From Halomarina litorea (GTDB lineage: Archaea > Halobacteriota > Halobacteria > Halobacteriales > Haloarculaceae), in contig NZ_CP100448.1 of NCBI RefSeq assembly GCF_024227715.1, forward strand, positions 310,001 to 374,000: a stretch of DNA of 64,000 nt, given 5' to 3'. The translations under genes and the position numbers were made by a program. This document shows positions 48,991 through 55,778 of this stretch, in pieces; the stretch's first letter is position 1; each line of letters starts with the position of its first letter. The notes under the pieces were generated by a model. It was not told where the DNA came from. It made no database searches and saw only the letters and a program-made list of their open reading frames with translations.

Positions 48991-50460
<1,470 letters not shown>

Positions 50461-50550
50461 ACAGACCCGGGATCAGGCTGTACGCCTGACCCACCTTGGC
50501 TCGGACGTCGGAACACGGGTTCGCCCGTGACGGCCGACCGAGCACTTCAG

Positions 50551-50571: not shown

Positions 50572-50643
50572 GGGCCCATAGCTCAGTGGGAGAGTGCCTC
50601 CTTTGCAAGGAGGATGCCCTGGGTTCGAATCCCAGTGGGTCCA
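50572..50643 (+). tRNA. tRNA-Ala (TGC)
   Basis: The acceptor GGGCCCA pairs with TGGGTCC followed by discriminator A. The anticodon loop CTTTGCAAG gives TGC and the T arm is GGTTCGAATCC. It sits in the 16S-23S spacer, the usual haloarchaeal place. It decodes GCA and GCG. Confidence 0.97.
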
Positions 50644-50820: not shown

Positions 50821-50848
50821 CGTGGTCCAGAGCATTATATTATCATCG

Positions 50849-53754
<2,906 letters not shown>

Positions 53755-53773
53755 TCATACTGCACTGTGACCC

Positions 53774-53809: not shown

Positions 53810-53861
53810 TCTGACCGACAGTGGTCCTTGACAAGACGCGGTTCGATTCCGCGCGTCGGCG

Positions 53862-54092
53862 TTAAGGCGGCCACAGCGGTGGGGTTCCTCCCGTACCCAT
53901 CCCGAACACGGAAGATAAGCCCACCTGCGTTCCAGCGAGTACTGGAGTGCGCGAGCCTCTGGGAAAACTGACCCGCAAGGGTGGCCAAGCACGGGCCGAG
54001 GATCGTGATCCGCAGTAGACCAGGGTTCGCCCCAGTCGACACGGAGATCGGTCTGTAGACGCCCGCAGCTGGTGGTTCGCCGCCATCCATTC
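53862..54092 (+). rRNA. rrf: 5S ribosomal RNA with large internal insertion
   Basis: It begins TTAAGGCGGCCACAGCGGTG, and normal 5S sequence runs through GCGAGCCTCTGGGAAAACT (to about 53968). About 105 extra bases then intervene before the expected GGTTCGCCGCCAT end. The total is about 231 nt instead of about 122. The insertion has its own helices (ACCCGCAAGGGT, CAGGGTTCGCCCCAG). Halococcus morrhuae has a 231-nt 5S RNA with a 108-nt insertion at this region, so this strongly suggests a related organism. The exact 3' end is uncertain by a few bases. Confidence 0.9.
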
Positions 54093-54210: not shown

Positions 54211-54285
54211 GCCAAGGTGGCAGAGTCCGGTTTACGCGGCCGCCTGCAGAGCGGCTACACGCCGGTTCAAATCCGGCCCTTGGCT
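54211..54285 (+). tRNA. tRNA-Cys (GCA)
   Basis: The acceptor GCCAAGG pairs with CCTTGGC, discriminator T. The anticodon stem GCCGC/GCGGC encloses CTGCAGA (GCA), and the T arm is GCCGGTTCAAATCCGGC. It is the usual last gene of the haloarchaeal rRNA operon. It is followed by TCTTCTTTCGAACC. Confidence 0.95.
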
Positions 54286-54596
54286 TCTTCTTTCGAACCC
54301 TCCACGAACAGCAGACGACGACGGAGGCGTTCGACCCACGAGTGAGTACCGGTCCACACTCGAGTTCGGTTCCCTTCGACGGGTCCTCGACGAGTGTCGG
54401 TCACCGTGAGAGGCGTCACTCCCCGCACCCCGGTCGACGCCCGTTACCGGGTGGCGTCCACCCCTGTGGAGGCCCGCTTGCCGACCACGAGTCCCGGGTG
54501 TGGACCGTATGCTCCGGTGTCCGTCCCGGTGAGCCGTGCGAGTCGTCCGCGCGCGGGAACGCAACCGATATACGCGGCGCTTTCGTCGCCTCATGT
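54286..54596. other. Gene-free gap after the rRNA operon
   Basis: 311 bp with no ORF of coding character on either strand. Only a TATA-like GATATACGC at 54567-54575, about 26 nt before the next ATG, stands out. Confidence 0.5.
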
Positions 54597-55778
54597 ATGC
54601 AGCGACGAGCGGCCGCGGCCCTGTTCGTCTTCTTCCTCGTCATGGGAGCGAGCGCGTACTCCGTCATCGCGCTCGCGGACGCTCCCGAGATCAACCTGCA
54701 GGAGGAAGAAACGTATTCGCAGGGCGACAACTTCGTCATCGACGGCCAACGATACAACGTCAGTGAACTGGGCATCGAGGAGTCGTCGGGCGGTGGCGGC
54801 CACGGCGGCGGCGGTGGGGCACACCCCGCCGGCGCTATCACGTGGACCGTCCAGAACGCCTCCTTCAACGAGACGCTCCAGAACGGGTCCTCGTTGGAGT
54901 ACAACAACGGCTCGTACCTCGTGACGGTCGGCGCCGCGCCGAACACGAGTGCGGTTCCGACGACCGGTGGCTCCGGCAACGCGTCGGGAAACCAGTCCGG
55001 AAACCAGTCCGGCAACGCGACCGACTCCGGTAACGGCACGGCTGCCCCGAGCAACGGTTCGGGGTCGGGGAACGCCTCGGGCAACGCTTCCGCCGGTGCC
55101 AACGCGACGAGCGCGTCCGCCGCACAGACCGGCAACCAGTCTGGCAACGCCTCAGGCAACCAGTCTGGCAACGCTTCGGGTTCCCAGAGCGGCAACCAGT
55201 CCGGGAACGCCTCCAACGGGTCGTCGAGTAGCGCGCTCGAACCCGCCCCCGGCGCGCTCGTGCTGACCGAACAGCAGGACGTTGAGTCCATCCTCCAGTC
55301 GGACCCCGCGGTGTACAACTCGACGGTCACCTCGGAGGGCGAGCAGTTCGTCCGCTACCGCTCGAACGGGACGTTCGTCCCGCTGTCGGAGTACCTCTCG
55401 ACGCCCGACCAGCAGCGGTTCACCGAGGGTGACACCTTCACCTACCAGAACCGGACGGTGCAGGTGGCGAACGTCACGAACACCACGGCGACCATCGCGT
55501 GGACGGCCCCGCGCGAGGGTGACGCCGACCTGGAACAGGGTGGCAACGTCACGCTCGCCAACGGCGAGACGTACATCGCGAACTTCATCACGGAGGGCCA
55601 CGGCAACAACACCTCCGTCGAGGTCCAACTCTCCCAGAACTTCGAGGAGTACAACCGACAGAACCAGTTGAAGAACTCCTTCAACACCCGGATGAACGGC
55701 ATGTGGGGCATCATCATCATCTCCGGCCTCGCCGGCTTCCTCGTCCTCATGTTGGCGTACATCCCCGTCCGCGGCTGA
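54597..55778 (+). CDS. Sequon-rich, C-terminally anchored surface glycoprotein
   Basis: 393 residues from the ATG at 54597. It has a signal/anchor (AAAALFVFFLVMGASAYSVI) and a His/Gly-rich patch (SSGGGGHGGGGGAHPAG, about 63-79). A low-complexity region (about 125-220) repeats GNQSGNASGNQSGN-like units, each an N-x-S/T site. A soluble domain (LTEQQDVESILQSDPAVYNS onward) follows, with a final membrane helix GIIIISGLAGFLVLMLAYI. I count by eye nearly 30 sequons. It is probably a densely N-glycosylated cell-surface stalk. The repeat DNA is itself repetitive and prone to expansion. The family is unknown. Confidence 0.8.
   Translation: MQRRAAAALFVFFLVMGASAYSVIALADAPEINLQEEETYSQGDNFVIDGQRYNVSELGIEESSGGGGHGGGGGAHPAGAITWTVQNASFNETLQNGSSLEYNNGSYLVTVGAAPNTSAVPTTGGSGNASGNQSGNQSGNATDSGNGTAAPSNGSGSGNASGNASAGANATSASAAQTGNQSGNASGNQSGNASGSQSGNQSGNASNGSSSSALEPAPGALVLTEQQDVESILQSDPAVYNSTVTSEGEQFVRYRSNGTFVPLSEYLSTPDQQRFTEGDTFTYQNRTVQVANVTNTTATIAWTAPREGDADLEQGGNVTLANGETYIANFITEGHGNNTSVEVQLSQNFEEYNRQNQLKNSFNTRMNGMWGIIIISGLAGFLVLMLAYIPVRG

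Follow-up and report, generated by a model that had tools for sequence, protein, structure and literature searches.

A Halococcus-type expanded 5S rRNA in Halomarina litorea, altered at its best-conserved part in this species only

An expanded 5S rRNA in Halococcus morrhuae was reportedly described by Luehrsen et al. in 1981, and what a nearly doubled 5S RNA does is a question that dates from that year. The whole 5S RNA pool of H. morrhuae is 231 nt long with the insert inside the mature RNA (PMC7812874), and in cryo-EM of the large subunit the insert is seen to project from 5S (Tirumalai et al. 2020, PMC7530397); its distal part is flexible, and a faint trace of density possibly reaches towards helix 38 (PMC7530397). 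Carriers published earlier are Halococcus, Halalkalicoccus, Halomarina and Halodesulfurarchaeum (PMC7812874), the 5S expansion of Halomarina having already been reported by Stepanov & Fox (2021, PMC7812874). In that study, the distal stem-loop was named as the most conserved part of the insert and a candidate functional domain, and all sequenced archaeal carriers were noted to be mis-annotated in like manner, with the 3' end placed inside the insert (PMC7812874). The gene of Halomarina litorea is itself a further example of a known curiosity; it is the comparison with other carriers that could matter.

In Halomarina litorea, the expanded gene is part of a complete rRNA operon in the normal archaeal order (16S-tRNA-Ala-23S-5S-tRNA-Cys; Table 1), located in the 64-kb window, which is the whole stretch of DNA analysed. 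A preliminary description of this DNA had recognised a 5S gene with a large internal insertion, and this is confirmed by the start of the Rfam match, by the true 3' strand of helix I, which lies beyond the insert in the sequence (GGTTCGCCGCC, 54074-54084), and by the bimodal distribution of lengths. The Rfam 5S match (53863-53981, 71.6 bits) has its final stretch forced onto insert sequence; automatic annotation of this 5S will give a wrong 3' end and, since pipelines cut such genes off within the insert, the trait is under-reported. When the segment from the core start to GCCGCC was scanned identically in all loci, its length was 119 nt in normal haloarchaea and 223–231 nt in carriers, with nothing between; the sole odd value, 249 nt at L208, is a scanning artefact of two tandem 5S copies. 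The segment measures 223 nt in Halomarina litorea, giving an insert of 104 nt, and the earlier estimate of about 105 bases was right; in Halococcus it measures 227 nt, i.e. an insert of 108 nt, matching the published value, and across carriers the insert ranges from 104 to 112 nt. The total length first proposed, 231 nt, was 4 nt too long, as the mature RNA is predicted to be 227 nt when its ends are transferred from the 5S of H. morrhuae DSM 1307 (published at 66311-66541; PMC7812874). This calibration used a sampled genome (G271, contig C54) whose 5S start, 66311, equals the published DSM 1307 start, and which was therefore taken as that strain. Zero chance matches to the architecture pattern are expected from shuffled windows, and chance or an assembly artefact is ruled out as the source of the insert by up to 30 distinct homologues with compensatory changes.

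Table 1. Coordinates of the expanded 5S rRNA gene of Halomarina litorea, its parts and the neighbouring operon features
Feature	Coordinates	Strand	Basis
16S rRNA, same operon	48991..50461	+	
tRNA-Ala, same operon	50572-50643		
23S rRNA, same operon	50843..53756	+	
Upstream tRNA-like "t-element", acceptor-like CCGAC/GUCGG, T-arm GCGGUUCGAUUCCGC	53815..53861	+	Sequence
Expanded 5S rRNA gene, predicted mature RNA 227 nt	53862..54088	+	Rfam RF00001 match from 53863; sole 5S match in genome; ends calibrated on H. morrhuae DSM 1307
Canonical 5S core, 5' part: from the 5' strand of helix I through the 3' strand of helix V (CUG, 53968-53970)	53862..53970	+	Sequence; helix V covariation
Expansion segment, 104 nt	53971..54074	+	Length difference, 223 vs 119 nt; covariance model R1 match
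Short arm: hairpin ACCC-GCAA-GGGU, GNRA-type loop	53971..53982	+	Pairs kept in 30/30 sequences
Long arm, stacked helices: 53988-53990/54068-54070, 53992-53996/54061-54065, 54001-54005/54049-54053, 54010-54012/54042-54044	53988..54070	+	Covariation, fold
Distal tip: internal loop AGUA (54014-54017)/GAC (54038-54040), resembling the sarcin-ricin (bulged-G) motif, and hairpin GAC-CA-GGG-UUCG-CCC-CA-GUC	54014..54040	+	Comparison of 30 distinct sequences
5S core, 3' part: helix I 3' strand GUUCGCCGCC and tail	54075..54088	+	Near-identical string in carriers and non-carriers
tRNA-Cys, same operon	54211-54285		

A single 5S gene was found in the Halomarina litorea assembly by BLAST and by the Rfam model, each, and neither search returned a second, normal-length 5S; unless the assembly misses a copy, the expanded gene must therefore serve the ribosome. 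Extra BLAST matches had suggested a mixture of normal and expanded 5S genes in Halococcus, where the Rfam search gives one gene per genome, and an extra 5S copy in G255 is a scaffold duplication adjoining an N. Four assemblies that appeared to lack 5S (G069, G241, G070 and G077) are likewise missing 23S. By analogy with H. morrhuae, the insert is likely retained in the mature 5S RNA of Halomarina litorea. It could instead be an intron or intervening sequence that is excised from the precursor, leaving a normal 5S or two fragments, as the order generally has 5S of normal length and a published caution holds that species not yet tested might excise their insertions (PMC7812874). Such excision is highly improbable, however, since the insert of H. 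morrhuae stays in the mature RNA and is found on the ribosome, which makes splicing unlikely. Archaeal splicing requires a bulge-helix-bulge, and the covarying fold described below closes a hairpin at the 5' junction, with no sign of a bulge-helix-bulge across both junctions as judged from that fold.

The t-element directly upstream of the 5S gene is presumably a signal for tRNase Z processing of the 5S 5' end, as in Haloferax; 5' processing of 5S via a tRNA-like element is known from Haloferax volcanii (PMC4326828). The arrangement recurs upstream of 5S at two other loci (L033 and L049) with differing stem sequences, and the free fold of the element is not exceptional. Elsewhere in the sample (L024:8-330), two normal-length 5S genes stand in tandem, the second having its own tRNA-like element upstream. 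An open reading frame of 478 aa (54342-55778) lies between tRNA-Cys and tRNA-Lys; it is rich in Asn-Gly-Ser repeats, has hydrophobic stretches near its start and C terminus, and is possibly a surface protein, whose true start may be downstream.

The insertion had been likened in the preliminary description to that of H. morrhuae, and alignment to the 5S of strain DSM 1307 bears this out: 110 of 119 core positions (92%) and 73 of 108 aligned insert positions (68%) are identical, the insertion point is the same, and the part that follows the insert is the helix I strand of 5S. The insert separates helix I from the CUG that forms the 3' strand of helix V, leaves helices I-V and loop E intact, and begins right after CUG, consistent with the published site 104.1-105. 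The CAG/CUG pairing of helix V covaries in 30 sequences, including changes to CAA/UUG and CAU/AUG (score 0.202, reached in 0 of 500 shuffles). An alternative helix V formed with a distal CUGG was rejected, as its covariation is absent (166 of 500 shuffles).

Folding of the insert gave a two-armed structure like that of H. morrhuae, and a single such fold, a short hairpin and a long arm set as an asymmetric V, suits all inserts compared, at first 11 and then 30 distinct sequences. Among the 30 distinct inserts, 98.2% of pair cells are standard and double-change cells number 148 versus 45 ± 6 in shuffles, a contrast that is still large given that the sequences are related and the structure was partly derived from them; sliding the partners by one base brings pairing down to 47–55%. 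All four pairs of the short-arm hairpin are kept in each of the 30 sequences, both partners having changed in two of these pairs, and the loop is usually GNRA across carriers. The covariance model built for the insert (R1), whose seed includes the Halomarina litorea sequence, matches it with an E-value of 1.2e-28. The single-sequence folding energy is not exceptional (z -1.6), so the case for the fold rests on covariation. No known RNA family was found inside the insert, and the idea that it arose by partial duplication of the arm made up of loop E and helix IV (AGUA and GAA span 28 nt in each) was dropped, as identity outside the motif is chance-like by eye. The insert branches off beside helix V at the junction with helix I, and its short hairpin and long arm would stand out from the central protuberance of the 50S subunit, like their counterparts in H. 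morrhuae.

The covariance model is matched by 33 of 391 sampled genomes of the class, falling in family codes f1, f5, f9, f12 and f14; further searches added f2, bringing the trait to at least six families in the order, among them f1 with carriers in 3 of its 22 genera. No carriers were found outside the order with this model, the match in a genome of another class (G503, 25.8 bits) being a chance hit to a sequence without 5S. A genome-wide pattern scan was too loose and returned mostly chance matches, of which only the one in Actinoarchaeum (L033) was useful. Carriers beyond the published list are Actinoarchaeum and further genera in f1, f2, f5 and f9, some of which may be taxa described since 2021. 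Actinoarchaeum halophilum YIM 93972, a hyphae- and spore-forming haloarchaeon, has two 5S copies, both expanded (one at L033:3204-3426). The carriers of f2 (L014 / L239-L240) have genomes of about 1 Mb that lie inside the order and show a deviant base composition in the rRNA tree. In the host genus, all seven members with a detected gene carry the insert, Halomarina litorea included, and the eighth is an incomplete assembly. The genus is sister to Actinoarchaeum in the rRNA tree, in keeping with the published placement of Halomarina oriensis next to Actinoarchaeum/Halocatena (PMC10067837), and belongs to a family other than that of Halococcus. The expansion had initially been called a strong lineage marker; it is real, but with a host in another family and carriers across these family codes, it does not mark Halococcus specifically.

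On 16S and 23S rRNA trees, the carriers form at least five separate groups and need 5–6 changes: a single ancestral gain would entail 10 losses, whereas gains without loss would number 5. Horizontal transfer between genera, proposed in 2021 as the means by which the trait spread, would explain the separate groups with one origin and four transfers, which is cheaper than one gain and 10 losses, and one transfer fits Halococcus (f5) and f14, whose inserts are 4% apart and whose rRNAs are 10% apart. Most inserts from different families, however, differ by 19–50%, and inserts grow apart in line with the rRNAs of their hosts (Mantel r 0.78, p 0.0001; 0.80 for the 5S core), a correlation driven in part by near relatives, with a genus-level r of 0.57. 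In addition, f9, which together with the non-carrier f11 branches below all other sampled families when rooted with one outgroup, has an insert among the most diverged. Transfer as the route of spread is thus conceivable and rather doubtful.

A carrier on the deepest sampled branch suggests, if it does not prove, an origin older than the proposed transfer implied. It appears slightly more likely than not that the insert arose once, ahead of the deepest split of the order, and was then lost independently about ten times, perhaps with a single later transfer linking Halococcus and f14, as carriers fall on either side of the basal split, the divergence of inserts goes up with that of the rRNAs, and the insert is present in 15 of 18 genomes of f5 and 3 of 4 of f9, the misses being mostly incomplete assemblies. 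This reading has to accept ten losses, each restoring exactly 119 nt, a root placed by a single long-branch outgroup with weak backbone support, and a poorly resolved insert tree. We lean tentatively to an old origin with losses over transfer.

The part of the insert that has changed least is the distal tip, with the 28-nt consensus AGUA-CACGC(A/U)GGG(U/C)YYGUCCCGGUG-GAA. AGTA is present in 29 of the 30 distinct inserts, GAA in 24 and GAC or GAT in four, and the cap consensus GC[A/U]GGG[U/C]YYGUCCCGG in 29, with Halomarina litorea being the sole exception. Between genera, identity is 0.91 for the tip, 0.87 for the sampled core (helices IV and V, loop E and the 3' end) and 0.59 for the rest of the insert; between f9 and the other families, the values are 0.91, 0.77 and 0.47. 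The tip is thus conserved across genera more strictly than the sampled 5S core, Halomarina litorea excepted, and selection acts on it, which argues that the near-doubling of this rRNA does something. In f9 itself (L027 / L236-L238), the flanking insert helices are almost wholly rewritten and the cap is still consensus.

In Halomarina litorea, the cap reads GACCAGGGUUCGCCCCAGUC and the internal loop AGUA/GAC: the pairs CAC/GUG are replaced by compensated GAC/GUC, one base is lost and the loop is UUCG, such that the arm and the pairing of the distal stem-loop are kept and the cap sequence is off the consensus of the other 29. Relative to its closest congeners, Halomarina litorea has 6 changed positions out of 28 in the tip and 5 out of 87 elsewhere in the insert, a modest difference (Fisher p 0.02) that concerns one lineage chosen after the data were seen. 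The six congeners keep the consensus tip, and only Halomarina litorea deviates. No copy of the tip motif was found elsewhere in the window within 3 mismatches.

AGUA opposite GAA is the sequence signature of the sarcin-ricin (bulged-G) motif. An internal loop of this type, flanked by covarying helices, is present in the insert, and the tip may therefore hold a sarcin-ricin-like motif; the assignment is read from the sequence signature, which is broken in part in 3 of the 30 sequences (e.g. AGCC, GGA). The main texts of PMC7812874 and PMC7530397 make no mention of such a motif in the insert, and the motif itself occurs in archaeal 5S (PMC8450098). In bacterial H95, an A-C combination is usual at the trans-Hoogsteen pair of the motif (PMC8450098), and in our reading the AGUA/GAC of Halomarina litorea would involve that same pair.

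The tip, with its sarcin-ricin-like loop and invariant hairpin, is a candidate site at which an RNA or protein partner would dock, a contact that may have been altered or relaxed in Halomarina litorea. We consider it very probable that the gene encodes a functional sole 5S whose retained 104-nt Halococcus-type expansion would form a surface arm, with a tip that may dock a partner in a manner altered or relaxed in this species. The docking component is opposed by the flexibility of the distal insert in the H. morrhuae cryo-EM, which disfavours a fixed contact, and by the rRNA comparison, in which no 16S or 23S column convincingly tracked the presence of the insert (best 0.89) and no unusual set of 16S or 23S changes was seen to match the altered tip. 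That same flexibility is also compatible with an expansion that is tolerated, functionless and held by structure alone, its tip being conserved for folding stability. The precise absence of the expansion in most relatives points the same way, as does the swap of the Halomarina litorea tip for a generic UUCG-capped hairpin with compensating pairs. This is unlikely, though it deserves some weight: unpaired and invariably paired residues of the tip persist across the deepest split sampled in the order while the flanking helices change freely, and stability alone would permit compensated changes in the tip as it does elsewhere in the arm. A wider reading of these sequences, which we advance tentatively, would make the expansion an old haloarchaeal ribosome module, kept across the deepest split and lost many times, whose tip docks a specific RNA or protein, with Halomarina litorea as a natural mutant in which that contact was rewired or dropped. 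Actinoarchaeum, the other added lineages and the natural tip variant make the question of what the near-doubled 5S does a testable one.

Set against the known systems, the expanded 5S of Thermoanaerobacterales and other bacteria likewise has a large helical insert, but at other insertion sites and unrelated to the haloarchaeal one (PMC7812874). The loop at the tip resembles the sarcin-ricin motif of 23S H95 and of archaeal and eukaryotic 5S loop E (PMC8450098) in that AGUA stands opposite GAA between flanking helices in most of the 30 inserts, whereas, unlike those established motifs, it is recognised from sequence only. The congeners in Halomarina share the insert; the consensus tip is theirs and the deviant tip is that of Halomarina litorea alone. 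The closest system is that of Halococcus morrhuae, which has the same insertion point, two-armed fold, operon position and status as the sole 5S gene of the genome. It differs in that the insert of Halomarina litorea is 104 rather than 108 nt and 68% identical, that its tip departs in the hairpin and at the third base of GAA, and that the mature expanded RNA is documented for H. morrhuae and predicted for Halomarina litorea. The 5S of Halomarina litorea is a Halococcus-type expansion with a homologous insert, of a kind already known, whose best-conserved part has changed in this species alone.
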